This document shows positions 8,615-64,000 of a stretch of DNA of 64,000 nucleotides, piece after piece. The stretch is from assembly GCF_001465545.3 (NCBI RefSeq), contig NZ_CP013480.3:2604001-2668000 (forward strand), in the 5' to 3' direction. This DNA is from Pandoraea norimbergensis (GTDB lineage Bacteria > Pseudomonadota > Gammaproteobacteria > Burkholderiales > Burkholderiaceae). The stretch's first letter is position 1. The number at the start of each line of letters is the position of its first letter. Both the position numbers and the translations under genes were made by a program. The notes beneath the pieces were generated by a model. That model was given only the letters and a program-made list of their open reading frames with translations. It ran no database searches and was not told the DNA's origin.

Positions 8615-8629
8615 GCGGCGTACAAACAC

Positions 8630-10546: not shown

Positions 10547-10563
10547 GCGACTGAAACAACGCG

Positions 10564-11910
<1,347 letters not shown>

Positions 11911-11958
11911 TCAATCGCTTGCAGTCTAAGCAGCGCTCTGCTTTCATAGAAGCGAATA

Positions 11959-12879: not shown

Positions 12880-13040
12880 CCGAAGGTAAAAGACGTCGGC
12901 GATGGCCCCGGCGGGCGGCATTTGTTGGACAATTGCGGGTTGTCTCAGCGCGCGTCGGCGTGTCTGGTTGTTTTGTTGAAGCGCGAGCGTCCGTTTCCCG
13001 GAAACTCGTTCCCCATCAGTTCTGTATCGAAGAGGTCGAT

Positions 13041-13169
13041 ATGCTGTCGCGTTGCCTGGCGTTTTTCTTGTTGGTCGGTTCGTTGTTCGCGCTCGCGGGC
13101 TGCAATACGGTGGATGGCGTCGGCCAGGATATCTCGGGTGCTGCACGCACCGTGAAGAAGGCCCTCTAA
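13041..13169 (+). CDS. Entericidin A/B family lipoprotein
   Basis: A 42-residue lipoprotein. The start at 13041 has GAGG in front. The signal peptide ends in the lipobox LAGC (Cys20), followed by NTVDGVGQDISGAARTV, the hallmark of EcnA/EcnB-type entericidins, small membrane-active lipoproteins originally described as a stress-related antidote/toxin pair. Only one such gene is present here. The flanking 160 bases upstream and 210 downstream carry no other gene. Confidence 0.85.
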   Translation: MLSRCLAFFLLVGSLFALAGCNTVDGVGQDISGAARTVKKAL

Positions 13170-13383
13170 GCCGTTCTGAAGCTGTTGTTGTATCTGGCGG
13201 AACGGCGATTGCCAACGTGAATATCTTAATGAAAAGCCGTTGGTTCCGTTTCGCTGAACGCATGCCTATAGTCGCTGCCACGGTTGTGTAGACGAATGCG
13301 CGAGCCCGCCGAGGTGCGGGTAGCGTCGTCTTGCTGCCGGCATCGGGCCGCCCGGCCCGGTGAGTTCACCGACGGCAGGCACG

Positions 13384-14712: not shown

Positions 14713-14775
14713 ACTCACGCTGAATTCATGAAACACCCCGTCTGTACGGGGGCCGCAAGCATTTCAAGGTTTGAC

Positions 14776-15756: not shown

Positions 15757-15833
15757 GCCCGGCAGGAGATAACAAAAGCCGGGTCACCCGGCATCGTCAA
15801 ACACACGTCACGTCAATTGAAGGGGAATGCAGT

Positions 15834-17303
15834 ATGGAGCAAGCCTCAACCACACCACAGGTCTCGGCCGCCAAGCCGGTGAGCGAAGATTGGCTCGCCG
15901 TCATCATCGGTCTGATCATCGTTATCGCCGGGCTCACGGGCGTGTCCGGGGCCGACCCGATCGGCTGGGTCGTCACCACGCGCGTCTGGACCGATCCGGC
16001 GGCGGCACTTGCGCCCGCAGCGTCGGGATACGCCCGCCTTGGCGGATTCACGGCGTTTGTCCTGACGTGGATCGTCCTGAGCGCGGTGCTCTCGCTGGGC
16101 GTTGCCGCGTTACAGCAAGACGTTCGCCGCTTTGTCGTGCGCTTTTCCGTGTTGTTCTGGCTGGCGTATGCGAGCTGGTTTCTCGGCAGCTATGCCTATC
16201 TGGCGGCGGTCACGCCCGCCGAGCAGACCAAGTTCGGCATCGACTGGTCGCTGCGCCTCACCAACGAGGGGGGCTACATCGTCGCGCTGGTGGTCGGCCT
16301 GATCATCGCCAATGCCTTCCCGCGTGTGAGCGCGTGGCTCTCGGATGCCGTGCGTCCCGAGTGGTACATCAAGACAGCGATCGTCGTGCTGGGGGCGTTT
16401 ATTGCCGTCACGGTGGCCGACCGGCTGACGTTCGCGTCGTCGATTTTGCTGCGGGGTGTGGCCGCCATCGTCGAGGCGTATCTGATCTATTGGGCGGTCG
16501 TCTATTACATCGCGCGCAAGTGGTTCCGCTTCCCGCGCGAGTGGGCGGTGCCGTTGGCCTCGGGCATCTCGATCTGCGGCGTCGCAGCGGCCATTTCAAC
16601 CGGTAGCGCCATTCGTGCGCGGCCGGCGATCCCGGTACTGGTGTCGTCGCTGGTCGTGGTGTTTGCGGTGATTGAACTGCTGATCCTCCCGTTCCTCGCC
16701 CAGCATTTCCTCGCGGACGATCCGCTGGTCGCAGCGGCGTGGCTCGGGCTGGCGGTCAAGACCGATGGTGCGGCGGTTGCGGGTGGCGCAATCACCGAGG
16801 CACTGATCAACGCAAAGGCGGCTGCGGGCGGCACGCATTACGCGGCAGGCTGGATCGTCGGCACGACGGCCACGATCAAGGTGTTCATCGACATCTTCAT
16901 CGGCGTGTGGTCGTTCATTCTGGCTTACATCTGGACCAACCACATCAACGTCACCGACGCCTCGCAACGTGCGCGTCCGCGCGAGATCTGGGAGCGGTTT
17001 CCGAAGTTCATCATCGGCTTTGTCGTGACGTTCGCGCTTGCACTGGGCCTGTCGCTCGCGGCCGGACCGGAAGCCGCAGCGAAGATCAAGGGCGCTGTCG
17101 GTGAGGCGAATAACTTCCGCGTCATCTTCTTCGTCCTGACGTTCTTCTCGATCGGTTTGCTGTCGAACTTCCGCAAGCTGTGGTCCGAGGGCATCGGCAA
17201 GCTCGCAGCGGTGTACGTCATCAGCCTGTTCGGTTTCGTCATCTGGGTGGGCCTGCTGATCTCGTGGCTGTTCTTCCACGGGGTGAAGCCGCCGCTGGCG
17301 TAA
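15834..17303 (+). CDS. Putative sulfate exporter (YeiH/UPF0324-like) membrane protein
   Basis: 489 residues, about 13 membrane segments. The motifs SICGVAAAISTGSAIRAR, LGLAVKTDGAAVAGGAITEA and WIVGTTATIKVFIDIFIG resemble the conserved core of the YeiH/Cons_hypoth698 family, whose members near sulfonate genes are annotated as sulfate or sulfite exporters. It is longer than the usual 310-360 residues, mainly through extra N-terminal membrane segments. In this setting it would remove sulfite or sulfate released by the monooxygenases. It is followed 41 bases later by a 53-residue membrane protein. Confidence 0.75.
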   Translation: MEQASTTPQVSAAKPVSEDWLAVIIGLIIVIAGLTGVSGADPIGWVVTTRVWTDPAAALAPAASGYARLGGFTAFVLTWIVLSAVLSLGVAALQQDVRRFVVRFSVLFWLAYASWFLGSYAYLAAVTPAEQTKFGIDWSLRLTNEGGYIVALVVGLIIANAFPRVSAWLSDAVRPEWYIKTAIVVLGAFIAVTVADRLTFASSILLRGVAAIVEAYLIYWAVVYYIARKWFRFPREWAVPLASGISICGVAAAISTGSAIRARPAIPVLVSSLVVVFAVIELLILPFLAQHFLADDPLVAAAWLGLAVKTDGAAVAGGAITEALINAKAAAGGTHYAAGWIVGTTATIKVFIDIFIGVWSFILAYIWTNHINVTDASQRARPREIWERFPKFIIGFVVTFALALGLSLAAGPEAAAKIKGAVGEANNFRVIFFVLTFFSIGLLSNFRKLWSEGIGKLAAVYVISLFGFVIWVGLLISWLFFHGVKPPLA

Positions 17304-17344
17304 GTCGTGCCGCCCCAACGTTCTCACATCACAGGAGTCTCACC

Positions 17345-17506
17345 ATGTCTGATCTCGACAACCTGTCGAAAGCCATCGCGCAAGCGCCGCAGGAGCCGCT
17401 GCTGCCGATCGAAAAGAAGTTGATCGGCTGGAGTCTCGGTATCGGCATCGTGCTGCTGGTCGTGCTCGGCATCATCAATCACTACCTGCCGGTGGCGGCG
17501 GTATAG
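17345..17506 (+). CDS. 53-residue single-pass membrane protein, possible transporter partner
   Basis: Starts at ATG 17345 with GGAG nine bases upstream. The N-terminus (MSDLDNLSKAIAQAPQEPL) is soluble, and one hydrophobic helix (IGIVLLVVLGIINHY) follows. Good ribosome-binding site, same-strand close spacing after the exporter and codon use like its neighbours argue that it is real. I do not recognise a family. A small subunit stabilising or gating the exporter is a reasonable but untested idea. Confidence 0.7.
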   Translation: MSDLDNLSKAIAQAPQEPLLPIEKKLIGWSLGIGIVLLVVLGIINHYLPVAAV

Positions 17507-17557
17507 CGTCGCAAACGTGTTTCTGTTTGTGTGAATTTGCTTAGCAGATATTCGAAT

Positions 17558-17585
17558 TTGTCATCAGGCAACCGAACTCTATACT
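17558..17585 (+). promoter_or_regulatory. Sigma-70 promoter for second monooxygenase gene
   Basis: TTGTCA (17558-17563), 16-bp spacer, TATACT (17580-17585). It predicts a transcript start near 17592 and a leader of about 127 bases before the ATG at 17719. Confidence 0.55.
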
Positions 17586-17592
17586 GGGTTGC

Positions 17593-17632
17593 GACGGCGT
17601 GCGGGGCGGCTTGTGCCGCCTTCGCCGCCGTC
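17593..17632 (+). promoter_or_regulatory. Nested stem-loop at the 5' end of the leader
   Basis: GACGGCG (17593-17599) pairs with CGCCGTC (17626-17632). Inside it GGCGGC (17605-17610) pairs with GCCGCC (17615-17620) around TTGT, with 5-base internal loops. It begins right at the predicted transcript start. It may stabilise the mRNA 5' end or act in attenuation; no known riboswitch is recognised. Confidence 0.5.
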
Positions 17633-17718
17633 ACTGTGGTCCGGGAAGACAACTGAGCAGGCGCTGCCAACGAAGTTACCCGCGCCGGTCTTTTACTCTG
17701 TTTTCCCGAATACCTCGC

Positions 17719-19053
17719 ATGCCTACGAATGCCCCGCGACAAATGAACCTGGCCGCCTACGTCATGGCGGGCCCGGTGTCTGGTCACCATGGCGGCTGGC
17801 GCTACCCCTCGGCGCAGCACGACATTCTCAACGTCAAGTTCTATCGCGACATCGGACGTCTGCTCGAAGCCGGCAAGTTCGACATGATCTTCCTGCCGGA
17901 CATTCAGGCGTTGCCGCGCCGTCTCGGCGACAGCCTCGATTCGCAACTGCGTCATGGTGCACTCGGTGCCTTGCGCCTGGACCCGCTCGTCGTGCTGTCG
18001 GCGCTGGCTGCCAGCACCGACAAGCTTGGGTTGGCCGCCACGATTTCGACGTCCTACTTCACGCCGTTTCATGTGGCCCGCGCACTGGCGTCGCTCGATC
18101 ATCTGAGCGCCGGCCGGGTCGCGTGGAATATCGTGACGTCGTTTCAAGATGCCGAAGCGCGCAACTTCGGTCTGGCCGAGCAACTCTCGCGCGAGGACCG
18201 TTACGACCGCGCCGACGAGTTCGTGGAAGTGGCGTGCAAGCTCTGGAATAGCTGGCACGACGACGCGCTGACGCTTGATCGCGCCACGCCGCAGTTTGCC
18301 GATCCGTCGCGTGTGGCGCCAATCTCGCACCGTGGCAAGTGGTTCGACGTTGAAGGGCCGCTGAACGTGAGCCGTCCGCCGCAGGGCCGTCCGGTGTTCA
18401 TTCAGGCGGGCGCCTCGGCCCGGGGCAAGGACTTCGCGGCGAAGTGGGCCGATGTGATTTTCGTCACGCACTCGTCGCAAGAGTCTGCGCAAAACTTCTA
18501 TCGCGATATCAAGGAACGTGCGGTGCAGCATGGCCGTAACCCTGATGACGTGAAGATTCTCCTCGGCATGGTGCCCGTCGTTGGCGAGACCGATGCCATC
18601 GCGCGCGATAAGCAGGCGTTGCTCGACGAGTTGTGCGATCCCGAAGCCGGGCTCTCCACGCTGTCGTATCAACTGGACATCGACCTGTCGCCATTCCCGC
18701 AGGACGGCGTGCTGCCCGATCTCGAAGTCGGCGGCGTGCAGGGTCATTACAAGGAAGTGGCAGAACTCACGCGCAAGCAGGGGCTGTCGTTGCGCGAGAT
18801 CGGCAAGCGTTACGGCATCGGCCCGCTGCGCGACTTCAATGGCTCGGGCGCCGCTGTGGCCGACACGATGCAGCAATGGTTCGATGCGCGCGCCTGCGAC
18901 GGCTTCATGGTGCAGATGCCGTACCTGCCGGGTGGCGTGGAGGACTTCGTGCGCCTCGTCGTGCCCGAACTGCAATCGCGCGGCAGCTTCCGCGCCGAGT
19001 ACGACGGCGCCACGTTGCGCGACCACCTCGGTCTCGCGCGCCCTGCGCACTAA
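17719..19053 (+). CDS. FMN-dependent monooxygenase, NtaA/SnaA/DszA type (second copy)
   Basis: 444 residues from ATG 17719. It shows the same family hallmarks as the gene at 13384 (GGWRYPSAQHD, SLDHLSAGRVAWNIVTS, YRDIKERA) but is clearly divergent from it, so it is a distinct enzyme rather than a recent duplicate. It heads a second unit with a binding protein, ATPase and two permeases, a layout that points to uptake and oxidation of a specific organosulfur compound. The reductant partner, a flavin reductase, is not encoded here. Confidence 0.87.
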   Translation: MPTNAPRQMNLAAYVMAGPVSGHHGGWRYPSAQHDILNVKFYRDIGRLLEAGKFDMIFLPDIQALPRRLGDSLDSQLRHGALGALRLDPLVVLSALAASTDKLGLAATISTSYFTPFHVARALASLDHLSAGRVAWNIVTSFQDAEARNFGLAEQLSREDRYDRADEFVEVACKLWNSWHDDALTLDRATPQFADPSRVAPISHRGKWFDVEGPLNVSRPPQGRPVFIQAGASARGKDFAAKWADVIFVTHSSQESAQNFYRDIKERAVQHGRNPDDVKILLGMVPVVGETDAIARDKQALLDELCDPEAGLSTLSYQLDIDLSPFPQDGVLPDLEVGGVQGHYKEVAELTRKQGLSLREIGKRYGIGPLRDFNGSGAAVADTMQQWFDARACDGFMVQMPYLPGGVEDFVRLVVPELQSRGSFRAEYDGATLRDHLGLARPAH

Positions 19054-19080
19054 GCCATTTGCGCCATTTGCGCCATTTGC
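19054..19080. repeat. Three perfect 9-bp tandem repeats
   Basis: GCCATTTGC occurs three times head to tail, starting one base pair after the stop codon of the monooxygenase and ending 36 bases before the next start. It could expand or contract by slippage. No regulatory role is known. Confidence 0.8.
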
Positions 19081-19116
19081 CAACGCACACATAACAACGA
19101 CTTCTCGCACACTGCC

Positions 19117-20169
19117 ATGTCTTCCCATTCGTCATCGCGTCAATCGTCGGCTAACGGCCGACGCAACTTTATCAAGCAGGGCGCAGCGGTGGCTGCGGCC
19201 TTGTCTTTCCCGATGATCGCCCGTGCGGCACCGCCCGTGATTCGCTACGCCAGCGCAGGCGTCGTGGGGCCGGGTGAGCTTGAAACGGTGATCTTCAGCG
19301 ACTGGTTCAAGGCCAACGTGCTGAAGCGCCACGGCAAGGAATACGTCATCGAGACGACCACCGCGCGTGGTACGCCGGGTGTCGCCACGCTGCTGGCTGC
19401 CGAGCAGGCCGATCTCGGCACGCTCGCGTTCACGAGCCTTGCTACCACGATTGCGCAGGAAGCCGTGCCGGGTGGCGTGACGGCCATTGCCGAAATCCAC
19501 CGCGATGCCGTGCAGGGCTATGCGTCTAACCCGTTCGTCGTACTCGCTGACAGCCCGGTTCGCACGATTGCCGATCTCAAGGGCAAGTCGGTGGCCGTGA
19601 ATGCGTTCAACGGCAGCGTCGACATCATCTTGCGCATCGCGCTTCAGGCCCACGGTCTGGACCCGCGCAAGGACGTGCGTGTGGTGGAAATGCCGTTCGG
19701 CAATATCGGTCCGGCATTGCGTCAGAAGCGCATCGACGTCGGCGTACTCGCCATGCCGTTCCAAGTCGACGAGGCGAAGAAGGGCGGCATTCGCACAGTG
19801 TTCGATGCGGTGGGTGTTGTGCCGCCATACCCGGTGCTGTTCCAGAGCGCCCGCACGCGTTTCCTGAAGTCGCAGCCCGCCGCCGTGCGCGCTTGGCTGG
19901 CGGACTATGTCGATGCGCAACGCTGGATCTATGACCCGGCAAACCGCAAGCAGGTCGTGGCACTCACGGCAGATCTGGCGAAAACCCCGGCGGCATCGCT
20001 CGACGAGTATTTCCTGACAGCGAAGGATTTCTATCGCGACCCGAACGCGACGATCTCGGCAGCGAGCTTGCAGCCGCCCATCGACGCGATGGCCAAGCTC
20101 GGGTTGCTGCCCAAGCCCGTGACGATTGCGTCGTACGTCGACGCGTCTTATCTTCCGCATCGCGTATGA
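19117..20169 (+). CDS. Aliphatic sulfonate-type ABC substrate-binding protein
   Basis: 350 residues. The N-terminus contains a twin-arginine signal (NGRRNFIKQG) ending in ARAAPP. The mature domain IRYASAGVVGPGELE, then RGTPGVATLLAAEQADLGTL and TIADLKGKSVAVNAFNGS, fits the NMT1/SsuA group. The stop overlaps the start of the ATPase gene by 4 bases, so this is its own transporter's receptor. Together with the monooxygenase upstream it forms a tight five-gene unit. The compound bound is unknown. Confidence 0.87.
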   Translation: MSSHSSSRQSSANGRRNFIKQGAAVAAALSFPMIARAAPPVIRYASAGVVGPGELETVIFSDWFKANVLKRHGKEYVIETTTARGTPGVATLLAAEQADLGTLAFTSLATTIAQEAVPGGVTAIAEIHRDAVQGYASNPFVVLADSPVRTIADLKGKSVAVNAFNGSVDIILRIALQAHGLDPRKDVRVVEMPFGNIGPALRQKRIDVGVLAMPFQVDEAKKGGIRTVFDAVGVVPPYPVLFQSARTRFLKSQPAAVRAWLADYVDAQRWIYDPANRKQVVALTADLAKTPAASLDEYFLTAKDFYRDPNATISAASLQPPIDAMAKLGLLPKPVTIASYVDASYLPHRV

Positions 20170-20981
20170 GCGACGCCGCCTCCCACGACAGCCTGCCGGC
20201 GATTCACGTCGCCGGATTGTCGAAGTCGTTCGACAAGGGCGGCGAATCGGTGCTCGCGCTCGATCGCATCGATCTGGACGTGCCGGCTGGCAAGCTCGTG
20301 TCGCTGGTCGGGCCGTCAGGCTGTGGCAAGAGCACGCTGCTCTACATCCTCGGCGGGTTTGTTCAAGCGTCACAAGGGGTCTGCTCGACGTTCGGCGCGA
20401 CGATTACCGGCCCGGGTGTCGACCGCGGCATCGTGTTTCAGGAATACGCGTTGTTCCCGTGGCTTACGGTCTACGACAACATCGCCTACGGTTTGCGCCG
20501 CAAGGGCGTGGATGCCGACACGGTGGCCCGTACCGTTGAGCGCTACATCGCACTGATCCATTTGAAGGGGTTCGAGCGTCGCTTTCCCCGCGAGTTGTCG
20601 GGCGGGATGCGTCAGCGCGTGGCGTTGGCGCGCACGTTTGCGAGCGATCCGAAGATTCTGCTGCTTGACGAGCCGTTCGGCGCGCTCGACGCACAGACCC
20701 GCGAGTTCATGCAGGACGAACTGCTGCGTCTGTGGTCGGCGTCGGGCAAGACGGCCGTATTGGTGACCCACGATATCGACGAAGCCGTGTACCTCTCGGA
20801 CACCATCTACGTGATGTCGCGCCGTCCGGGGCGGATCGTCAAACGCATCGACGTCGATCTGGACCGCACGCTGGGCCGCGAGACTGCGATGCTCTCTGCT
20901 CGTTTCGCGGCGTTGCGCAACGATGTCTGGCTGACCGTTCGTGAGCAAGTGCGGGGCACCGAGCACGAGGAGATTACATGA
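20166..20981 (+). CDS. ABC transporter ATPase, SsuB/TauB type
   Basis: 271 residues with all nucleotide-binding motifs: Walker A GPSGCGKST, Q-loop FQEYALFPW, signature LSGGMRQR, Walker B ILLLDEPFGALD and switch His in VTHDID. The relaxed D-loop and EAVYLSDTIYVMSRRPGRI segment are typical of the nitrate/sulfonate/taurine subfamily. Start overlaps the preceding gene by 4 bases and the next gene starts inside its stop (ATGA), indicating translational coupling. Confidence 0.92.
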   Translation: MSDAASHDSLPAIHVAGLSKSFDKGGESVLALDRIDLDVPAGKLVSLVGPSGCGKSTLLYILGGFVQASQGVCSTFGATITGPGVDRGIVFQEYALFPWLTVYDNIAYGLRRKGVDADTVARTVERYIALIHLKGFERRFPRELSGGMRQRVALARTFASDPKILLLDEPFGALDAQTREFMQDELLRLWSASGKTAVLVTHDIDEAVYLSDTIYVMSRRPGRIVKRIDVDLDRTLGRETAMLSARFAALRNDVWLTVREQVRGTEHEEIT

Positions 20982-21784
20982 GCGGGGCAACGTTACCGAC
21001 GCTGGCGGTCCGGCGCTTGCACGGCGCGCGCACGCTGACGGGCATGGTGTCGGTCGCACTGTTGTTCGTCCTGTGGCACGCCGCGACGCGCTGGCAATGG
21101 TTGCCGGAGGGTTTCGTGCCGCCGATGGGCGACGTCTGGCGTGCCATGTTGCATCTCGCGCGCACGGGCGAACTGTGGGACAACCTCGCCGCGACCCTTC
21201 GTGCGAGTGTCTGGGGGCTGGCGGCTGGGTTGCTGATCGGCGTGCCGACGGGCTTGCTGATGGCGACGTCGGGTGCGTTCGAGCGCATCGTATCGCCGGT
21301 GGTGCGCTCCACTTATGCATTACCCAAGACGACGTTGATTCCGCTGCTGGTGCTGTGGTTCGGGGTGGGTGGCATGACCAATATCGTGGTTATTGCCGTG
21401 ACCACAACACTGCCGCTGATCGTCTACACCCTGCGCGGTGCGCAAGAGGTGCCGCATGTGCTGCTGTGGAGCGCACGTTCGCTCGGGACATCGCGTGCCG
21501 AGTTGCTCTGGCGTGTGGTGCTGCCGGGAGCGATGCCGCAGATTCTCACGGGCGTTCGCGTCGCGTTCGGCTTCACGCTGCTGGTCGCCATCTCGTGCGA
21601 GATGATCGTGGCGAATCAGGGCATCGGTAAGTTGATCTCGCAATACGGCGACCAAGGCAGTTACGACTATCTGTTTGCAGCGCTGTTGGTGACGACGGTG
21701 ATTGCCTATCTGGCCGATCTCGCGCTCAACCGGGCCAGCCAGTTCTTGCTGCGCTGGCATGAAACGGCACAACATCATGACTAA
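20978..21784 (+). CDS. ABC transporter permease, SsuC/TauC type (first)
   Basis: 268 residues with about six membrane helices and the EAA loop SARSLGTSRAELLWRVVLPGAMP, as in SsuC/TauC-type permeases. It overlaps the ATPase gene by 4 bases. A second, different permease overlaps its end by 8 bases. Two permease genes imply a heterodimeric channel, unlike the homodimer of the classic SsuABC system. Confidence 0.9.
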   Translation: MSGATLPTLAVRRLHGARTLTGMVSVALLFVLWHAATRWQWLPEGFVPPMGDVWRAMLHLARTGELWDNLAATLRASVWGLAAGLLIGVPTGLLMATSGAFERIVSPVVRSTYALPKTTLIPLLVLWFGVGGMTNIVVIAVTTTLPLIVYTLRGAQEVPHVLLWSARSLGTSRAELLWRVVLPGAMPQILTGVRVAFGFTLLVAISCEMIVANQGIGKLISQYGDQGSYDYLFAALLVTTVIAYLADLALNRASQFLLRWHETAQHHD

Positions 21785-22607
21785 GGCGACGGTATGGAAT
21801 GGTCCGGTGGTACCACACGCTGCGCAGACGGGCGACGCCCCGGCGCGCAAGCGCGCTGCGGGCCCGCTTCGTTGGATTGAGCGCTGGATTGCGCTCGCCG
21901 TGCTGCTGGCGCTCTGGCAAATCTCGACGCATTACGGCTGGGTGAGAGCGGTCTTTCTGCCGTCTCCGTCGGTCGTGTTCGGTACGCTGTGGCAACTCGT
22001 CTCGACCGGGGAGTTGTTCGCCACACTGGGCACGAGCCTAGGCCGAGCTTTCGCAGGCGTTGCGCTGGCCGCGCTCGTGGGCATTCCGGCGGGCTTCCTC
22101 ATGGCGGAGTCCCGGTTCTGCCGCTGGTGGCTCTCGCCATATGTCGCGTTTGGCTTTCCGCTGCCGAAGATTGCACTCATCCCGGTGCTGACCGCGTGGT
22201 TCGGTATGGATAGCCTGTCGAAGGTGATTCTGGTGTTTGCCACCTGCGTGTTCCCGTTCATCGTGGCGGCGCAGTCCGGGGCATCGCTGATTTCTCAGAA
22301 GCTGCGCTGGGCGGCGTTTTCACTCGGCACGAAGCGCAGTGAATTGTTCTGGCTGATCCTGTTGCCTGCCACGGTGCCGTCAATGTTGTCGGGGCTTCGT
22401 ATTGCGCTGCCGATCGGCCTTATTACGGTGTTCACGGCAGAGATGGTCACGGGCGGCGGGCTGGGCGAAGCGATCGTGCAAGCGCAGCGATATTTCCAGT
22501 CGCCGCAGGTGTATGCCTATGTGATCGTCACGATGGTCGTCGGGTATTTGGCCGATGCGGGCATTGCGTGGTTGCAACGACGGTTTGCCGCGTGGGCTAC
22601 CGAGTGA
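21777..22607 (+). CDS. ABC transporter permease, SsuC/TauC type (second)
   Basis: 276 residues from ATG 21777, which overlaps the stop of the first permease. Six membrane helices with EAA loop AAFSLGTKRSELFWLILLPAT. The first 35 residues are soluble and Ala/Arg-rich. It is related to, but distinct from, the first permease. It completes the ABC transporter, and the rhodanese gene follows 43 bases later. Confidence 0.9.
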   Translation: MTKATVWNGPVVPHAAQTGDAPARKRAAGPLRWIERWIALAVLLALWQISTHYGWVRAVFLPSPSVVFGTLWQLVSTGELFATLGTSLGRAFAGVALAALVGIPAGFLMAESRFCRWWLSPYVAFGFPLPKIALIPVLTAWFGMDSLSKVILVFATCVFPFIVAAQSGASLISQKLRWAAFSLGTKRSELFWLILLPATVPSMLSGLRIALPIGLITVFTAEMVTGGGLGEAIVQAQRYFQSPQVYAYVIVTMVVGYLADAGIAWLQRRFAAWATE

Positions 22608-22650
22608 ATTTTCGGTCCACCGCGACCGCATTCTGACTTTCGATTTGAAA

Positions 22651-23544
22651 ATGACTGCTACATCCTCAACACCGGCCATCGAGCCGGGCTATCTCGTGAA
22701 CACGGCGTGGCTCGCCGAGAATCTGCATCGCGCCGACCTGCGTCTGTTCGATTGCAGCGCGACGATGGTGGTCGATCCCGTCATCAAGCAACGCGTGCAG
22801 CCGGAACGTGCGGCCTTTGAGGCGGCACACATCCCGGGCGCACAGTTCATCGACATCGACGCGCAACTGTCGCACCGCGATCACCCGATTCACTTGATGC
22901 TGCCGCCGCCGGAAGCGTTCAAATCGGCAGTGGAGGCGCTGGGCATTCGCGACGACAGTCTCGTTGTCATCTACAGCACCGGCACGCCGTGGTGGGCCAC
23001 GCGTGTGTGGTGGATGCTGCGTGTCTATGGATTTACCAATGCGCATCTGCTTGATGGCGGTCTGGCCAAGTGGCAGGCCGAGGGGTATCCGGTAGAGCGA
23101 GGCCCGGCGGCTGCCCCGACGCGCAGTAAGTTCACGGTGGCGCAGCCGTTGCCCTATGTGGCCGAGCGTGCCGACGTGGAGCAGGCGCTGCACGCGCCCG
23201 AAGTTCGGCTGGTGAATGCGCTGCGACCCGCGCAGTACAGCGGCGAGGAACTGCCGCGCAAGGGGCGCCCGGGGCACATTCCCGGCAGTATCAACGTCTC
23301 TGCGGCGAGCCTGCTCGACACGGCGACGGGGCAGTTGCTGGACGATACCGGGTTGCGGGAGCGCTTCGCGGCGGCAGACATCGGTCCTGAGCGCGCTGTC
23401 ATCGCTTACTGCGGTGGCGGTGTGTCGGCAAGCCTCGTCGTCTTCGCGTTGATGAAGCTGGGGCATCCCAATGTGCGCCTGTACGATGCATCGCTTGGCG
23501 AGTGGGCGAGCGCGCCCGAGTTGCCGATGCAGGTCGACGTTTAA
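22651..23544 (+). CDS. Two-domain rhodanese sulfurtransferase
   Basis: 297 residues from ATG 22651 with tandem rhodanese domains. The first (about 15-150) contains VVIYSTGTPWWATRVWWMLR without a catalytic Cys at the active-site position, as usual for the structural domain. The second carries the active cysteine in IAYCGGGVSAS. Such enzymes move sulfane sulfur from thiosulfate or 3-mercaptopyruvate to cyanide or thiols. At the end of an organosulfur operon it may handle sulfur released by the oxidation steps. It converges on a LysR gene. Confidence 0.88.
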   Translation: MTATSSTPAIEPGYLVNTAWLAENLHRADLRLFDCSATMVVDPVIKQRVQPERAAFEAAHIPGAQFIDIDAQLSHRDHPIHLMLPPPEAFKSAVEALGIRDDSLVVIYSTGTPWWATRVWWMLRVYGFTNAHLLDGGLAKWQAEGYPVERGPAAAPTRSKFTVAQPLPYVAERADVEQALHAPEVRLVNALRPAQYSGEELPRKGRPGHIPGSINVSAASLLDTATGQLLDDTGLRERFAAADIGPERAVIAYCGGGVSASLVVFALMKLGHPNVRLYDASLGEWASAPELPMQVDV

Positions 23545-23607
23545 GAGCAGCGTAGCGCGAGTAGGTCGTGAGCTTGGGGGCGGTCATCGTGCCCCGGACT
23601 TGTGCGT

Positions 23608-24585
23608 TCACAACATCGCGTCCGCCGGGCGTGCAATCCCGAGCTTGCCGATATCGACCGCTCGACGGCGGGCAAACTGCCGGCACTCCTGCAAGAGCCA
23701 GGCGTTGAACACGCTTGCCGCCGGGGAATTCGCACTGCGCGAGATCATCCAGTACGAGGCGGGCGATCGCACTGCGACCGGTACGACAGGCACCAATCGC
23801 CCGTCACGCAACTCGTTCGTCAATAGCGACACACGGGCAATCGCAATGCCCTGATGGTTGAGCGCCGCACTGAATGCCATACTCGCGAGATTGAAATGCG
23901 GCCCGTCCACGTGGCGAATCGCTGCGGGCTGCACCGCCGTCATCCACGCCCGCCATTCGGCAGAGGCATCCGCCCCGGTCCACGCGGCGGCGTCATGCAA
24001 CAACACACACGACTTGTCGATGCGGCCCTTGGCGGCTGCCGGATTGCGCAACAGATAGGTCGGTGTGGCGACGGGCAATAGCCACTCGTCGAGCAACAGC
24101 GCATGCACATCGGTCAGCGGGAAGTCATCCACCGAGTAGCGAATGGCGACGTCCACGCCGGTCGTATCGTCGTCAGGCATGCCGACCGCAGTGAACTCCG
24201 CGTTGAGCTGCACCGGGTTTCGTTCGAAGTGCTGGTGAAAGTCCGGGAGTCGCGACACCAGCCAATGCAGCGCAAACGAAGGACAACAACCGACGCGTAC
24301 CGGCTCGTCGGTGCTGGCAATCCGCACGAGCGTGGTTTCTATTTCGTCGAAGGCCCGCTGCGTGCCTTCCAGCAGCATTTCCCCCTCGCGAGTGAGCGTC
24401 AGGCTGCGATGACCACGCACGAAAAGCGCATAGCCCAATCGTTTTTCCAACTGCCGGATCTGTTGACTGATGGCGCTCTGCGTCAGGCTGAGCGCATCCG
24501 CTGCGCGGGTGAAGCTCAGCAGCCGGGCGGCCGTCGCAAAGCAACGCAGGGCACCGAGCAAAGCGGCGTCGATGGGTTTTCGCAT
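23608..24585 (-). CDS. LysR-family regulator (GcvA-like)
   Basis: 325 residues from ATG 24585. The helix-turn-helix reads LLSFTRAADALSLTQSAISQQIRQLEKRLG, and the C-terminal domain (VRVGCCPSFALHWLVSRLPDF) resembles the GcvA branch. It lies between the sulfur cluster and PBP1A and faces the PBP1A gene over 213 bases. Target unknown; the neighbouring rhodanese operon or a remote gene are both possible. Confidence 0.85.
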   Translation of the reverse strand: MRKPIDAALLGALRCFATAARLLSFTRAADALSLTQSAISQQIRQLEKRLGYALFVRGHRSLTLTREGEMLLEGTQRAFDEIETTLVRIASTDEPVRVGCCPSFALHWLVSRLPDFHQHFERNPVQLNAEFTAVGMPDDDTTGVDVAIRYSVDDFPLTDVHALLLDEWLLPVATPTYLLRNPAAAKGRIDKSCVLLHDAAAWTGADASAEWRAWMTAVQPAAIRHVDGPHFNLASMAFSAALNHQGIAIARVSLLTNELRDGRLVPVVPVAVRSPASYWMISRSANSPAASVFNAWLLQECRQFARRRAVDIGKLGIARPADAML

Positions 24586-24798
24586 TAGCGTGATTAATGC
24601 ATGAGTAAGGAAATATCGCTTGTCTGCCGTCCGGCGCTTCGCAGAGTATGGCTGCCGGGTCTGGCTGATTCTTGGCGATTCATGCGGATTGTAGAGCACC
24701 TCTCGTGCGCTCGTGTGGCGTGCCATCGGTGTTCTCGTGACATCCATACATTAGCCAGACTTGTCGATTGGTTTAGTTATTGAAGGAATGGTTCACGG

Positions 24799-27258
24799 AT
24801 GAATGAAAGGAATTTCGACGCGAACGCGCAGGGCCCCGAACGAGGTAGCCCCACGCCGCCGCCAGCCCGCAAGCCCCGGCACTGGCTGAAGTGGTTGTTG
24901 TTCGTGATGGTGGCTGGTATCACGGCGTTCGGCGCGCTCGCGGCCTATGTGATTGTGGTCGTGTACCCGGAACTGCCACCCGTGGCCGTGCTCGGTGAAT
25001 ATCGCCCGGCGCAACCCTTGCGCATCTACTCGGCGGATAACCAGTTGCTTGCCGAGTATGGCATTGAGAAGCGCATTCCCTTGACCTACGACCAGATTCC
25101 CGCGCATCTGCGCAATGCGCTTCTGGCCACCGAAGACGCCGATTTCTTTGCCCACGGCGGCGTCGATTTCCCCGGTCTGATTCGGGCCAGTGTCGCCAAC
25201 GCGATGCATGGCGGCAAGGCGCAGGGCGGCAGCACGATCACCATGCAACTGGCGCGCAACTTCTTTCTTACGCGAAAGAAGACCTACGCGCGCAAGCTCT
25301 ACGAAATTCTGCTCGCCATCAAGATTGAACGCACGTTGAGCAAGCCGCAGATTTTGACGCTCTACATGAACCAGATTTATCTGGGTGAGCGGGCTTACGG
25401 CTTTGGCGCGGCGGCTCGCGTCTACTACGGCAAGCCGGTCGAAGAACTGACGCTTGATGAATGCGCGATGCTCGCTGGTCTTCCCAAGGCTCCGGCAGCG
25501 TTCAATCCGATCGTAGACCCCGCACGTGCACGCACGCGGCAGCTTTACGTGCTCGGCCGCATGTTGCAATCCGGTGTGATTTCGCGCGAAGACTTTGCCG
25601 CTGCGTCGGCTGCGCCGCCGTTCTCGCCACGGGTCGCGACCGGCCGCGATATTCCGGCCGATGCGGTCACCGAGACGGTGCGCCAGATGATCGTGAAGGA
25701 CTACGGCGATGAAGCCTACGAGTTGGGGCTGCGCGTCTGGACAACGGTCGACACGCAACGTCAGCGCGCTGCGGCCGATGCTGTGTTGCGCGGTGTCGAG
25801 GCGTATCAGGCGCGCCAGCCGTATCCCGGCGCGGAGACGAGGGTGCCGGAAGACCTGCGCGCGCAACTCGATCTTCGCGCTGGTCTGACACCAGCGCTCG
25901 CGGCGTATCTGAAGCAGCAGCCCGACTACCCGGGCTTGAGCGTTGGCGTGGTGGCCCATGTCGACGGCGCGGCCAAAGGCGCGAACGCTGGTCGCGTCAC
26001 GGTGCTGATGGAAGACGGCCAGCACGCCACCGTTGCTCAGGCTTCGACCAAGCAACGCGTCCATCTCGGCGACGTTGTGCGCGTGCGGGCGCTTGCGAAC
26101 GGCACCTTCCAATTGAGCGCGATGCCCACCGTGCAGGCGGCGCTCATTTCGATCTCGCCCGAAGATGGCGCGATTCTCGCGATGATCGGCGACAACGGCA
26201 TGTCGGGCCAGCATCTCAATCACGCGACGCAGGCGTGGCGTCAGCCGGGCTCGGCGTTCAAGCCGTTCCTGTATGCGGCAGCGATTGCCAAGGGATACGG
26301 GCCTTCGACGCAGGTCTTCGACTTGCCGCTAGAGATCCGGCCAGCCCCCGGCGCGCCGATCTGGCGACCCAAGGCGGGCGGCGCACCGCTTGGGGAATTG
26401 TCCTTGCAGACGGCGTTGGCCAAGTCCCGCAACCTCGTCGCGATTCGACTCGTGCAGGCGATTGGACCGGCGTATGCGCGCGACTTCGCCGTACAGACCT
26501 TCGGTTTCGATAAGGACAAGATTCCGGCCAACTTGCCGATGGCGCTGGGGGCCGGGGCCGTCACGCCGTTGCAGATGGCAGTGGGCTACGCCGTGTTCGC
26601 CAATGGTGGCGAGCGTGTGGCGCCGTATCTCGTGTCGCGCATCGTCGATAGCCGTGGGGCGGAGTTGTTCCATGTGCGGCCGGAGCGCGTACGTGTGATG
26701 TCGCCGGCGACCAGCTATCTCACATCGCAGATGTTGCGCGAAGTTGCCCAGCACGGCACGGCGTCGGCCACTCGCGTGCTCGGCCGCAGCGACATTGGCG
26801 GCAAGACTGGCACCACCAACGACTATCGAGACGGCTGGTTCGCAGGCTTCCAGCAAAGCGCGGCAACCGTGGTCTGGATGGGACACGACACGCCGCGTTC
26901 GCTGGGCCGCAGCGAATGGGCCTCGCGCACAGCATTGCCGGTGTGGATCGACTACATGAAACAGGCGCTCGATGGCGTTCCGCAGGCATCGGTCGTTGTG
27001 CCGGATGACATTACCGTTGCTGACGATGTCGCTTACGACAAGGCGTTTCGGCCGGGCAGCGGTTTTGTGGAGAAGCTGAGCCCAGACGGCGTGGCGCTGT
27101 CGCAACCGGCGAGCGGGGATGACGAGGAGGGTGATGACGCTCAGGCCGCGACTGCGGCGGGGGCGAGCGCGAATGCGCAAAAGCGCGGGGTGCCGTCGGA
27201 CACGTCTGCGGCGAAGTCCGAGCGCGATCGCATCTTGCAGTACTTCATCAACGAGTGA
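24799..27258 (+). CDS. mrcA: Penicillin-binding protein 1A (bifunctional peptidoglycan synthase)
   Basis: 819 residues. A cytoplasmic tail and one membrane helix (about 31-55) precede the GT51 glycosyltransferase domain, whose catalytic glutamate is Glu112 in LLATEDADFF, followed by GGSTITMQLARNFFL. The transpeptidase domain has the active serine Ser485 in PGSAFKPF, Ser-x-Asn at 543-545 (KSRNL) and Lys669 in GGKTGTTND. A loop domain lies between them and a soluble Ala-rich tail ends the protein. It polymerises and cross-links glycan strands at the inner membrane. Confidence 0.92.
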   Translation: MNERNFDANAQGPERGSPTPPPARKPRHWLKWLLFVMVAGITAFGALAAYVIVVVYPELPPVAVLGEYRPAQPLRIYSADNQLLAEYGIEKRIPLTYDQIPAHLRNALLATEDADFFAHGGVDFPGLIRASVANAMHGGKAQGGSTITMQLARNFFLTRKKTYARKLYEILLAIKIERTLSKPQILTLYMNQIYLGERAYGFGAAARVYYGKPVEELTLDECAMLAGLPKAPAAFNPIVDPARARTRQLYVLGRMLQSGVISREDFAAASAAPPFSPRVATGRDIPADAVTETVRQMIVKDYGDEAYELGLRVWTTVDTQRQRAAADAVLRGVEAYQARQPYPGAETRVPEDLRAQLDLRAGLTPALAAYLKQQPDYPGLSVGVVAHVDGAAKGANAGRVTVLMEDGQHATVAQASTKQRVHLGDVVRVRALANGTFQLSAMPTVQAALISISPEDGAILAMIGDNGMSGQHLNHATQAWRQPGSAFKPFLYAAAIAKGYGPSTQVFDLPLEIRPAPGAPIWRPKAGGAPLGELSLQTALAKSRNLVAIRLVQAIGPAYARDFAVQTFGFDKDKIPANLPMALGAGAVTPLQMAVGYAVFANGGERVAPYLVSRIVDSRGAELFHVRPERVRVMSPATSYLTSQMLREVAQHGTASATRVLGRSDIGGKTGTTNDYRDGWFAGFQQSAATVVWMGHDTPRSLGRSEWASRTALPVWIDYMKQALDGVPQASVVVPDDITVADDVAYDKAFRPGSGFVEKLSPDGVALSQPASGDDEEGDDAQAATAAGASANAQKRGVPSDTSAAKSERDRILQYFINE

Positions 27259-59981: not shown

Positions 59982-60719
59982 ATGCGCTTGCTCGTGATCA
60001 ACCCCAATATTTCCACTAGCGTGACGGCGCTGATCGAGGCGGAAGCCCGCCGGGCCGCTTCGCCTGAGACGGCGCTGTCGTTTGCCACGGCGCAATTCGG
60101 CGTGGCGTATATCGAAACGCGCTTCGAAGCGCTGACCGGAGGTTATGCGACGGCATGTGCCGCAGCCGAGCGTGCCGGGGAGTTCGATGGTCTCGTCGTG
60201 GCGGCCTTCGGCGATCCCGGCTTGGGCGGCATCAAGGAGTTGTTCGATGTGCCGGTCGTCGGCATGACCGAAGCCGCGCTGGCGAGTGCCTGCCTGCTCG
60301 GCAACCGGTTCTCGATCATTGCCATTTCTCACCGGATTCAGGCGTGGTACCGGGAGTGTGTTGCGGCGAATGGTTTGTCGTCGCGGCTGGCGAGCATTCG
60401 CAGTCTTACCTCACCACTGCGCGACATCGCCACGGTGCAGGAAGATCACGCGGCCCGGCTCATCGAGCTGAGCCAGATGGCGGTGGAGCGAGACGGTGCC
60501 GACGTCATCATCGTCGCCGGGGCACCGCTGGCCGGGCTGGCACGCCAGTTGCGCGGGCAGATTCCGGTGCCTGTCGTCGATGGCGTCTCCAGTGCGGTCA
60601 GGCACTGCGAATCGTTGATGGCGCTGCAACCGGGGGTGGCGACGGGTGGCAGCTTCCAGCGGCCACCGAGAAAAGACAACGCCGGATTGCCGCCGGCATT
60701 GCGGGCGTTACTCGAGTGA
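59982..60719 (+). CDS. Hydantoin-racemase-fold protein lacking both catalytic cysteines
   Basis: 245 residues from ATG 59982. The fold and neighbours suggest a hydantoin or Asp/Glu racemase. The usual Cys-containing motifs read AAFGDPGL (Ala75) and VAGAPLAGL (Ala181), so both acid/base cysteines are absent. Members with this GAPLAG pattern exist but I know of no proven activity. It may act on a hydantoin by another mechanism or bind a ligand. Its stop lies within a four-copy 9-bp repeat. Confidence 0.8.
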   Translation: MRLLVINPNISTSVTALIEAEARRAASPETALSFATAQFGVAYIETRFEALTGGYATACAAAERAGEFDGLVVAAFGDPGLGGIKELFDVPVVGMTEAALASACLLGNRFSIIAISHRIQAWYRECVAANGLSSRLASIRSLTSPLRDIATVQEDHAARLIELSQMAVERDGADVIIVAGAPLAGLARQLRGQIPVPVVDGVSSAVRHCESLMALQPGVATGGSFQRPPRKDNAGLPPALRALLE

Positions 60720-60751
60720 CGTCAGTGACGTGAGTGACGTGAGTGACAGGA
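60716..60751. repeat. Four 9-bp tandem repeats across a stop codon
   Basis: GTGACGTCA, GTGACGTGA twice, then GTGACAGGA. The first copy includes the TGA stop of the racemase-fold gene. The middle two are perfect. Slippage could occur but would not change the protein. Confidence 0.75.
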
Positions 60752-60760
60752 AGGAAGTGA

Positions 60761-60796
60761 AAGGCCGGCGCGCAAACGTTGCCGGCCTTCGTTTTT
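60761..60796 (+). terminator. Intrinsic terminator after the hydantoin-type cluster
   Basis: AAGGCCGGC (60761-60769) pairs with GCCGGCCTT (60781-60789), followed by C-G-TTTTT. It cleanly separates the metabolic operon from the contractile injection genes. The remaining 60797-61010 must carry the promoter of the latter; I find only a GGGGA ribosome site before the ATG at 61011. Confidence 0.88.
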
Positions 60797-61010
60797 CTAT
60801 CCCCGAGCAAAACGCCGTGCTCATGTGCTACAGTTCCGCAGCAAAAAATGAAAGCGAGACGCTGAAACGCTCAGGAATGCCGAACATATAGGACCTTTTG
60901 TTTCGGTAACCAAGACGGTGTAGGAAAAATAACGACAAAGCAGTGCCGGTAGTCGTAAGTGTTGTACCGAATCAGATAAGCAACTGGATTGCGAACGGTA
61001 TCGGGGAACC

Positions 61011-61586
61011 ATGATTAACGCTGCTGTGGGCCACCTGGCGGGGCGGCTCAACGAATATTTAAAACAAGCCTACACACTCACCGAAGACATCGTGACGATG
61101 TCCGGTCTCGTGGATATGCACGGGCATGCTATTGCCGACACGAACAACCGTTTGGTCGTGTTCCTCACGCATATCGAACGAGACACGGGCCCCTATCGCC
61201 AGTCTTTGCCGGGTGACGCCGGTGCGTCGCGCGTGACGACCACCGTCGCGCCGCTCTACCTGAATCTCTACGTGATGGTGGCTGCCAATTACACCGGCGG
61301 CAACTACGAAGATTCGCTCAAACTGATCTCGGGCGCGATCCAGTTCTTCCAGCGTTATCCGGTCTTCGACCATCAGTCGTCGCCATCGCTCGATGCGCGC
61401 ATCGACCGGCTGGTGCTCGAGATCGAGAACCTCAATATTCGCGAACTCAGCAATCTGTGGACGATGCTTGGCGGCAAATATCTGCCGTCGGTGCTGTACA
61501 AGGTGCGCCTGATGGCCCCCGATACCGGCGACGTCGTCGGTACCGTGCCGACGGTGCGCACACCTGTACCGGCGCTCAATCACTGA
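61011..61586 (+). CDS. Pvc16/DUF4255-family protein of a contractile injection system
   Basis: 191 residues, no signal peptide. The segments IERDTGPYRQSL, PLYLNLYVMVAANYTGGNYEDSLKLISGAIQFFQ (in parts) and NLWTMLGGKYLPSVLYKVRL are characteristic of DUF4255/Pvc16 proteins. Afp16/Pvc16 end the tail tube and sheath of Photorhabdus-type and Serratia antifeeding systems. It is the first gene of a same-strand run leading to the sheath. Confidence 0.85.
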   Translation: MINAAVGHLAGRLNEYLKQAYTLTEDIVTMSGLVDMHGHAIADTNNRLVVFLTHIERDTGPYRQSLPGDAGASRVTTTVAPLYLNLYVMVAANYTGGNYEDSLKLISGAIQFFQRYPVFDHQSSPSLDARIDRLVLEIENLNIRELSNLWTMLGGKYLPSVLYKVRLMAPDTGDVVGTVPTVRTPVPALNH

Positions 61587-61606
61587 CCCGGCCCGGAGAG
61601 CGCCCC

Positions 61607-62542
61607 ATGTCCGCCACGTCCACCGGGACAGCCGCGTTACCGTATGCGTGCTTGTTCACCGTTGATCTCGCTCACGCCTACTGGCCGCAGCCAAACGCTT
61701 CACTGCCATGGGCGCGTTTTGCCCTGACACCTGAGACCACGGATTGGGTGCGTCGCCGCGACCTGCTCGTGATTCCACACCGGCACGGCGTTGCGTTCTT
61801 TTGCGAAACTCGCCGTCGCGATGTTCTGCTGGGCGGTTTGAAGCCCGGCGCGGCCGTCGCCACCGTCAAGTGGTATGCGAAAGACGAACACTTTTCCCGC
61901 TACACAGCACCGGCGTTGACCGGCGGCGCAGCCGTCTATTTCCTGCAAAGCGCGGCGAGCGTGCGAATCGATGGTGCACTCATGCAGCGGCTGCATGCCG
62001 GCGAGGCCGTGGATGCCACGAATGCTTTGCCGGTCAGCGCGCCGTCGCTGGCCCCTCATCTGGAGCGCGCCGACAGACTCAGTCCTCCGGTGCTGGTCGT
62101 GCAGATCGATCTCGCCGATCAGGTGGCGAACACCGCAGTCAACAAGGCCGGCGTCGACTACATCGTCACCTTCGCCGCGCGCTCGACCCGCTGGCGCTAC
62201 TACTACGTTTGCGATGCCGAGAACGATGCGTTGGCCATCGTCGATCTCGACGAGAAAGTCAGCTTTGTGGCCGTCGGCAGTGAGCCGCGCAATGGCGGGC
62301 GTCGCGCGCTGGTGTTCGAGAGCGAACAAGAAATTGCAATGCAGCAGCAATATCCGCAGCGTTTTCAGTTGCGGGAACGGGGCCGGTCGGGTGAACGCGT
62401 GTTGATCCGGAGACTGCCCAATGCCGAAGTTGGCAGCGTGATTCAGCAGGGGATGGAGACAAAGCAACGGCAGGAAGGGCAGGCGCAGCAGAAAGCGGCA
62501 ATGAGCCCGGCAGTTTGGGTGTCCGAGATCTACATCAATTGA
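61607..62542 (+). CDS. Uncharacterised contractile-injection-associated protein
   Basis: 311 residues from ATG 61607, 20 bases after the Pvc16-like stop and 21 bases before the sheath start, so part of the operon. No membrane segment or signal. The middle reads as a compact beta-rich domain (CLFTVDLAHAYWPQ, VLVVQIDLADQVANT, VDYIVTFAARSTRWRYYYV) and the last 50 residues are Gln/Arg-rich (RERGRSGERVLIRRLPNAE, QQGMETKQRQEGQAQQK). I do not recognise a family. A baseplate, cap or assembly role is possible. Confidence 0.75.
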   Translation: MSATSTGTAALPYACLFTVDLAHAYWPQPNASLPWARFALTPETTDWVRRRDLLVIPHRHGVAFFCETRRRDVLLGGLKPGAAVATVKWYAKDEHFSRYTAPALTGGAAVYFLQSAASVRIDGALMQRLHAGEAVDATNALPVSAPSLAPHLERADRLSPPVLVVQIDLADQVANTAVNKAGVDYIVTFAARSTRWRYYYVCDAENDALAIVDLDEKVSFVAVGSEPRNGGRRALVFESEQEIAMQQQYPQRFQLRERGRSGERVLIRRLPNAEVGSVIQQGMETKQRQEGQAQQKAAMSPAVWVSEIYIN

Positions 62543-62563
62543 TATCGTTGACCGAGGTGAACC

Positions 62564-64000
62564 ATGGCGCAATACAAAACACCAGGCGTATACGTAGTCG
62601 AACAAAATGCGTTTCCCAACTCCGTGGTGGAAGTCGCCACGGCCGTCCCGGCATTCATCGGCTATACCCAGTTCGCCGATAACAAGGGCACGCCGCTGGC
62701 CAATACGCCGTGGCGTATCAGCTCGATGGCGGAATTCGTGACGTACTTCGGTGGCGCACCTGCCACGAGCTACTCGCTCGACGCGGTGCCGGCAGCACCG
62801 AGCGCACCGGCGGCTGCCAAGAAGGCAGACGGCGGCGACGCAGCGGCTGCCGATGCGGGTGGCGCCACGCCGCCGGCACGCCCGGTGGTGACCGATCTTT
62901 TCATCGGCGCGACCGGCGCGCGCAAGCCGTTCAAGTTCACGCCGCAGGGCACGGAATACCTGCTGTACTACAGCATGCTGCTGTTCTTCCAGAACGGCGG
63001 CGGCCCGTGCTACATCGTGTCGGTCGGCACGTACGCCGACGGCGAGATCGACCCGGGCAAGCTGACCGCCGGTATCGATACGCTCGTCAAGGAGCAGGAA
63101 CCCACGATGGTGGTGGTGCCCGAAGCCGTGCGCCTGTCGAGTCAGGACTGCACGACCGTGCAGCGCGCGATGCTCATGCACTGCGGTTACACGATGCGTA
63201 ACCGCTTCGCAATCGTTGATGTCTTCGACGGCTCGTGGGACCGTCAGGCGCCCGGCGGCGATGCCATCACGGCATTCCGCGATTCGGTGGGCTCGGAGTT
63301 TCTGGACTTCGGCGCGGGCTACTACCCGTGGGTCAACACGTCGATCGTGACCGAGAAAGATCTCGACTTCACGAGGATTTCGAACCCGGCACAACTGCAA
63401 TCGTTGATCACGGCAGAACTGGCGGCTGTGCTCAACCCCGTGCCGGCATCGCCTGCCGCGACGGCGAAGGCCAAGCAGATTCAGGAAGTGCTGACGCAAC
63501 TCGGCGGTACGGCCGCCCCGGCAGCGCCTGCCGGAGGCGATGCCGCTGCGGCGAAACCGGACGCCGCCGCTGACGCCGGTGGTGCCGATGCGAAGCCCGC
63601 CGCCGATGCGGGCGGTGCTGATGTAGCCGCAGCAGCGAAGCCTGCTGCCAAGCCAGCGGTCATGTCGCCGAACGACATCGAGACGCTGCACAAGACGCTG
63701 GCCGCGCTGAGCAATGTGTACGTGCAGGTGCTGCAATCACTGCAAAAGAAGCTCAACTTGCTGCCGCCGTCGGCTGGCATGGCAGGGCTGTACACGCTCG
63801 TCGACAACACGCGCGGCGTATGGAAGGCACCGGCCAACGTGAGCCTGAACGGCGTGGTGTCGCCCAGCGTGAGCATCTCGAATGCCGATCAGGAAGACCT
63901 CAACGCACCGACCAACGGCAAGTCGGTCAACGCCATTCGCAGCTTCATCGGCGAAGGCGTGATGGTGTGGGGTGCCCGCACGCTCGACGGCAACAGCCTC
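62564..64000 (+). CDS. Contractile tail sheath protein, truncated by the window edge
   Basis: 479 codons are visible, ending in-frame at the last base. MAQYKTPGVYVVEQNAF, YKTPG and FIGYTQFA at the start, GPCYIVSVGTY and RNRFAIVDV in the middle and GEGVMVWGARTLDGNSL at the right end are classic features of phage-type/Pvc sheath proteins. The sheath contracts to drive the inner tube through a target membrane. Two Ala/Asp/Gly/Pro-rich insertions (about residues 75-107 and 315-366) interrupt the usual domain and share an ADAGGA core. Confidence 0.92.
   Translation, partial: MAQYKTPGVYVVEQNAFPNSVVEVATAVPAFIGYTQFADNKGTPLANTPWRISSMAEFVTYFGGAPATSYSLDAVPAAPSAPAAAKKADGGDAAAADAGGATPPARPVVTDLFIGATGARKPFKFTPQGTEYLLYYSMLLFFQNGGGPCYIVSVGTYADGEIDPGKLTAGIDTLVKEQEPTMVVVPEAVRLSSQDCTTVQRAMLMHCGYTMRNRFAIVDVFDGSWDRQAPGGDAITAFRDSVGSEFLDFGAGYYPWVNTSIVTEKDLDFTRISNPAQLQSLITAELAAVLNPVPASPAATAKAKQIQEVLTQLGGTAAPAAPAGGDAAAAKPDAAADAGGADAKPAADAGGADVAAAAKPAAKPAVMSPNDIETLHKTLAALSNVYVQVLQSLQKKLNLLPPSAGMAGLYTLVDNTRGVWKAPANVSLNGVVSPSVSISNADQEDLNAPTNGKSVNAIRSFIGEGVMVWGARTLDGNSL

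Follow-up and report, generated by a model that had tools for sequence, protein, structure and literature searches.

A clade Ib contractile injection system in Pandoraea norimbergensis, its predicted GH18-fold membrane protein and unlinked candidate cargo

Contractile injection systems (CISs) of clade Ib, to which AlgoCIS, the metamorphosis-associated contractile structures (MACs), type VI secretion system (T6SS) subtype iv and the Bacteroidales injection systems (BIS) have been assigned (PMC8894135, PMC12210884), act in very different ways, as free, arrayed or membrane-anchored machines (PMC8894135), and sequence alone has so far not separated these modes of action. Here we describe a CIS that begins near the end of a 64,000-nucleotide stretch of the P. 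norimbergensis chromosome (the window, G000:C1:2604001-2668000, G000 being the genome under study, one contig of 6.17 Mb). An earlier note on the window had proposed the start of a CIS and not of a prophage; reading past position 64000 bore this out, giving genes for tube, spike, PAAR, gp25, Baseplate_J, tape measure and AAA ATPase. The complete CIS was found to comprise 17 genes on the forward strand over 25.7 kb, extending past the window end, with a widest intergenic gap of about 127 bases. The general CIS parts list, namely sheath, inner tube, spike/PAAR, gp25, Baseplate_J, tape measure, cap and AAA ATPase, is present in this one cluster, and the tube, spike, baseplate, tape-measure and ATPase genes downstream rule out a chance arrangement of open reading frames (ORFs).

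Kind of contractile injection system

The cluster genes were searched against Pfam (all 17), NCBIfam (10 of 17) and PHROGs (10 of 17). The sheath, tube and spike matched phage tail families in PHROGs, which would suit an ordinary prophage tail or an R-type tailocin remnant. However, AAA ATPase, CIS_TMP, CIS_tube, DUF5908 and Pvc16_N proteins are present, and no head, terminase, integrase or lysis protein was named by these searches, in line with the note, which had reported no phage lysis, capsid or integrase gene. A sheath match was seen in 223 phage records; in none did it cover 80% of the sheath, and the ten listed were 28-35% identical. The gene content of the locus thus refutes a prophage or tailocin origin, to which we give almost no credence.

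Against solved structures, the sheath matched 9r9h best (E 4e-183), followed by AlgoCIS 7adz (5e-109) and the thylakoid CIS (tCIS) 7b5h (4e-97), and more weakly 9qgl (2e-56), Pvc3 (1e-53) and Afp3 (2e-50). The baseplate matched 9rce (E 2e-95), AlgoCIS (6e-87), tCIS (3e-86), 9qgl (1e-33) and Pvc11 (2e-21). Since the 9r9n sheath chain is common to 9r9h, 9r9i and 9rce, the nearest solved machine is 'SalCIS'. The first three genes lie on the forward strand with gaps of 20 and 21 bases (ORF list and sequence), and the note had correctly placed a Pvc16/DUF4255 gene first and the tail sheath third. The second product, of 311 aa, had been left as unknown; no Pfam family lay over cut-off and the single sequence gave no accepted family or PDB match, but a 13-sequence profile of its family identified the tail cap, matching PDB 9r9n_C 'SalCis16b - cap' (E 2.4e-18) and AlgoCIS 7adz_1A 'cap adaptor protein' (E 1.4e-4).

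Extracellular CISs (eCISs) of the antifeeding prophage/Photorhabdus virulence cassette (Afp/PVC) type, which form clade Ia, have three sheath paralogues. The note had assigned the locus to this type and proposed looking for further paralogues beyond 64000; we found one CIS sheath in the whole genome. PDB entries include Pvc2-4 and Afp2-4, and AlgoCIS scored far above Pvc and Afp for both sheath and baseplate. The Afp/PVC assignment is therefore not supported, the nearest relatives being SalCIS, AlgoCIS, tCIS and a Parabacteroides sheath. The other sheath matches in the genome were two 477-aa frames (31% identity, phage-like by resemblance) at G000:C1:1250538 and 3115764, which score equally against the CIS sheath and probably belong to Mu-like prophages.

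The sheath is 48.6% identical to one on a Parabacteroides distasonis plasmid, with which it shares a clade (support 99/97). A tree of 42 sheaths was built from already-retrieved loci, including 10 of the 13 CIS-positive Pandoraea genomes, and several of its long branches are unsure. The results showed that the 24 rows bearing the label for the membrane protein described below all lie within one clade of 29 (100/99), which includes Parabacteroides, Aureibacter and Persicobacter plasmid sheaths, and that none of the 13 rows outside is so labelled; the Pandoraea labels follow the CIS result, and the two Bacteroidota rows were labelled by their GH18 annotation. Judged by its solved relatives and by this tree of our own 42 rows, as distinct from the published reference set, the machine is a member of clade Ib and thus of an already known kind of CIS.

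GH18-fold membrane protein and mode of action

The last gene of the cluster encodes a 1082-aa protein with a predicted glycoside hydrolase family 18 (GH18) TIM-barrel fold and three C-terminal hydrophobic segments, and most of its homologues start with a signal-like hydrophobic segment. The GH18 catalytic motif is DxxDxDxE. This motif is degenerate, being absent in 26 of 26 aligned rows (placed by eye); among sister proteins, one retains the motif Glu only and the Persicobacter protein nearly retains the full motif. Across 300 genomes of the order Burkholderiales, the membrane protein was found in 13, all within the 14 having this sheath lineage. The protein itself was seen in G000, in eight named Pandoraea loci (the closest, from Pandoraea sp. 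PE-S2T-3, at 97%) and in three Herbaspirillum loci, by a search covering part of our Pandoraea genomes. Being tied to a single sheath lineage, such a protein would offer a testable marker. No paper in the literature searched joins 'contractile injection system' with 'glycoside hydrolase family 18', and the tie of this protein to the CIS lineage seems new there, a homologue being already in the PDB (9r9a), perhaps from the depositors of SalCIS.

The 274-aa protein is 35% identical to a Persicobacter protein annotated 'adhesin' and 33% to an Aureibacter protein at the equivalent cluster position. As a single sequence it reached All3316 at E 0.77 only, and a four-row profile matched the N-terminus of tCIS Cis13/All3316 (E 6e-4), bd2133 (E 0.0016) and, weakly, AfpX13 (E 0.68). 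Cis13 of the Anabaena tCIS bears its own predicted transmembrane helix (PMC8894136), whereas hydropathy gave none in the 274-aa protein, so we propose that docking is through the separate membrane protein, whose presence in the operon argues for membrane docking.

From these features we infer, with modest confidence, a complete clade Ib CIS that would dock at the inner membrane and be fed by unlinked cargo carrying the eCIS_core domain. Particles would assemble in the cytoplasm and dock by their baseplate and Cis13-like fibre onto the GH18-fold protein, whose large extracytoplasmic part may bind a cell-wall or surface glycan without cutting it. Firing would be outward from the producing cell, as in T6SS subtype iv, perhaps upon envelope contact or stress.

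The same genes could instead encode a free extracellular CIS like MACs or AlgoCIS, released by lysis, in which the 274-aa protein would be a short target-binding fibre and the GH18-fold protein an egress factor joining a cell-wall-acting domain to a holin-like membrane part. AlgoCIS and MACs, also of clade Ib, are extracellular (PMC8894135), the matches to bd2133 and AfpX13 would fit such a fibre, and 9 of the 26 membrane-protein rows matched Phage_holin_2 weakly (best E 0.0046; row 1 scored 7.6 bits against a cut-off of 32). However, the catalytic signature is degenerate in every row and Pfam named no endolysin or spanin in the 17 genes, and we consider this reading rather unlikely. It is quite improbable that the machine is a cytoplasmic stress or cell-death CIS acting in the producing cell, as in Streptomyces, in which the membrane protein would play the part of the firing trigger CisA. 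CisA, a membrane protein encoded in the operon, has a solute-binding-like domain outside the cytoplasm and is required for contraction and function (PMC12237407), and tCIS has been proposed to act in stressed cells (PMC8894136). However, the N-terminus of CisA is cytoplasmic (PMC12237407), in contrast to the signal-like start of most homologues here, and no CisA similarity turned up, though none was searched for.

eCIS_core genes as candidate cargo

The note had expected a toxin gene in the cluster, and none was recognised among the 17 genes. DUF4157 (eCIS_core) is a published eCIS marker and toxin tag (PMC8213781), a point in favour of the free extracellular machine, and cargo has been described in or near the CIS operon (PMC8213781, PMC11297309). 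The genome has one eCIS_core (PF13699) gene over cut-off, at 1276229 and 1.39 Mb from the CIS cluster, and its 177-aa product has nothing C-terminal of the core. By resemblance, the gene is flanked by Mu-like-looking genes and a convergent sensor-kinase-like gene, and it lies about 26 kb from the 477-aa sheath-like frame at 1250538.

A strong sheath match (at least 982 bits) was found in 13 of 32 Pandoraea genomes, a 14th giving only a weak, phage-like match of 31%, and eCIS_core occurred in exactly those 13 (Fisher 2.9e-9, kinship ignored). On an rpoB tree of 30 of the 32 genomes, 4 changes are required to explain the label, which yields only 2 supported independent pairs (sign test p 0.5); with so few pairs, the co-occurrence within the genus is not by itself statistically independent. 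The 19 core matches listed across Pandoraea, one of them at cut-off (22 bits), all lie outside the CIS cluster, at about 40 kb to 1.7 Mb from the sheath where the contig is shared and otherwise on other contigs. This exact co-occurrence of unlinked genes suggests that operon-only cargo lists miss cargo. The Pandoraea proteins have alike cores and mostly differing C-termini, two pairs being alike over the full length, which by sequence is a polymorphic effector pattern; Pfam on nine of them gave one match to a DNA/RNA endonuclease, below threshold (25.5 bits against a cut-off of 27). Varied C-termini behind a common core suggest delivery into other cells, which weighs against action in the producing cell.

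Outside Pandoraea, cores of 34-53 bits, a class defined after the table was seen, were found in all 14 genomes with this sheath lineage and in 1 of 286 others (G043), any core being present in 51 of the 300. A core lies 0.6-1.5 kb behind the membrane-protein match in 9 of the 13 genomes having that protein, and none lies behind it in G000, G051, G094 and G273. Eleven open frames behind the membrane-protein gene (9 loci) are 59-79% identical to the core of this genome, and in Herbaspirillum rhizosphaerae the core starts about 115 bases behind that gene. In several sister clusters (L091, L092, L094, L095) a gene for a product of about 200 aa stands between the membrane-protein gene and the eCIS_core gene or match; the one product searched, that of L094, belongs to the class I methyltransferases (Methyltransf_12, E 1.1e-11). 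H. rhizosphaerae has another CIS of a different sort (sheath 35% identical) at L016:16840-22999, a few kb past the first cluster and its eCIS_core gene.

In the docked machine that we favour, the cargo would be proteins tagged with eCIS_core whose genes lie elsewhere on the chromosome, the AAA ATPase helping to load them; the likely cargo gene of this genome is far from the CIS cluster. Fully unlinked eCIS_core cargo seems new against the literature searched, which included no dedicated search for that wording; 'Pandoraea' is absent from the main text of PMC8213781 and PMC11297309. More tentatively, it is possible that the GH18-fold inner-membrane family, mostly without catalytic residues, is a dedicated dock and firing sensor that makes clade Ib CISs cell-anchored and outward-firing across Betaproteobacteria and Bacteroidota, with interchangeable eCIS_core-tagged cargo from scattered genes, like T6SS orphan effectors. 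The genus Pandoraea includes opportunists of cystic fibrosis airways. Loci for eCISs have been reported as apparently absent from mammalian pathogens (PMC8213781); in the literature searched, no paper joins 'Pandoraea' with 'contractile injection', and the occurrence of a CIS in this genus seems new there.

Gene inventory and comparison with known systems

Table 1. Features of the CIS locus. W, window position; L, position in locus sequence L004 (add 60500 for the window position, 2664500 for the genome position).
Feature	Position	Strand	Evidence
GC-rich hairpin GGCCGGC...GCCGGCC, then T-rich tail TTCGTTTTT	W ~60761-60799	+	folding
Pvc16_N / DUF4255 protein, 191 aa, tail terminator/cap complex, first gene	W 61011-61586 (L 511-1086)	+	Pfam PF14065, E 1.2e-33
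311-aa protein, tail cap / cap adaptor (Cis16b-like)	W 61607-62542, ATG at 61607 (L 1107-2042)	+	13-sequence profile vs PDB
Contractile tail sheath, 589 aa in full	W 62564-64000, 479 aa open at window end (L 2064-3833, to genome 2668333)	+	Phage_sheath_1; full length also Phage_sheath_1C
Tube protein 1	L 3961-4419, start possibly 3958	+	PF06841, E 1.8e-50
Tube protein 2	L 4485-4949	+	PF06841, E 2.1e-37
DUF5908 protein	L 4954-5148	+	E 2.1e-9
CIS_tube protein, Pvc7-like	L 5152-5835	+	E 2.9e-39
VgrG-like spike	L 5840-7630	+	vgr_GE, E 1.3e-54
PAAR tip	L 7690-7992	+	E 3.4e-21
gp25	L 8060-8497	+	E 3.4e-25
Baseplate_J, long, 1299 aa	L 8547-12446	+	E 4.7e-6
274-aa protein, Cis13-like N-terminus	L 12436-13260	+	four-row profile
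113-aa protein, family-less	L 13257-13598	+	
853-aa baseplate protein, called Cis12 by position	L 13595-16156	+	weak TIGR02243 match, E 3.3e-5
Tape measure, 1820 aa	L 16159-21621	+	CIS_TMP, E 1.1e-91
AAA ATPase	L 21585-23006	+	E 1.1e-29
Membrane protein, 1082 aa, predicted GH18 fold, last gene	L 23008-26256	+	

The note had placed a strong terminator before the locus. The hairpin is indeed present (-20.3 kcal/mol, z -2.83; an equally good fold arose in 2 of 200 shuffles), but a consensus terminator scan did not list it on the forward strand; it probably terminates the amidohydrolase/racemase genes that lie upstream. Direct repeats form a short run (TGACGTCAGTGACGTGAGTGACGTGAGTGACAG) at window 60718-60750, at the racemase stop codon, and a consensus scan gave no sigma-70-like promoter at window 60600-61100. 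After the cluster stands a flavodoxin-like (wrbA-like) gene on the opposite strand. Relatives of the wrbA- and marR-like genes lie downstream of the CIS in three Pandoraea loci (L008, L009, L015), with none in the available stretch of five others (L010-L014), and the CIS seems to occupy two or more chromosomal sites in the genus. The 113-aa protein, present in all eight named Pandoraea loci and two of the three Herbaspirillum loci, appears internally duplicated (xxALxxLP[FY][KH]RVxxLI twice, by eye). A TssF match at G000:C1:4291272-4293047 (E 1.9e-169) points to an ordinary T6SS in this genome as well.

Among known systems, Afp and PVC share the general parts list with the Pandoraea CIS and have three sheath genes and insect-active cargo, whereas the Pandoraea cluster has one sheath and no recognised toxin. 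The tCIS is anchored and its Cis13 N-terminus resembles the 274-aa protein; in Pandoraea that protein is without a helix by hydropathy, and the membrane protein is a separate gene. AlgoCIS is the second-best match for sheath and baseplate, its cap adaptor also matches, and a Baseplate_J protein of this length would suit a spike cage as in AlgoCIS and MACs. Unlike these two, the Pandoraea system has an extra membrane protein; no Alg19-type fibre was recognised in the cluster, though no search was aimed at one. In contrast to BIS and the Amoebophilus T6SS subtype iv, the host is betaproteobacterial; the P. distasonis plasmid sheath is a clade-mate, its BIS-like status being taken from the species. 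Gut BIS are described as lacking Cis6 (PMC12210884), whereas the Pandoraea cluster has a DUF5908 gene whose product may be Cis6, and the 274-aa protein is only a candidate homologue of Aasi_0556 / BDI_2455. SalCIS (PDB 9r9h, 9r9i, 9r9n, 9rce) provides the closest solved sheath, baseplate and cap by sequence. Compared with it, the Pandoraea sheath has two additional low-complexity stretches rich in Ala, Asp and Pro (residues ~80-120 and 292-364), and many sister sheaths are about 70-90 residues shorter than the Pandoraea one. The chain 9r9a_B is a distant homologue of the GH18-fold membrane protein (E 1.1e-6) and, from its accession number alone, probably also part of the SalCIS deposit. Finally, the Aureibacter and Persicobacter plasmid clusters have most gene types in common with the Pandoraea CIS, among them the 'adhesin' family of the 274-aa protein and a protein annotated as GH18 whose C-terminal part has hydrophobic segments.
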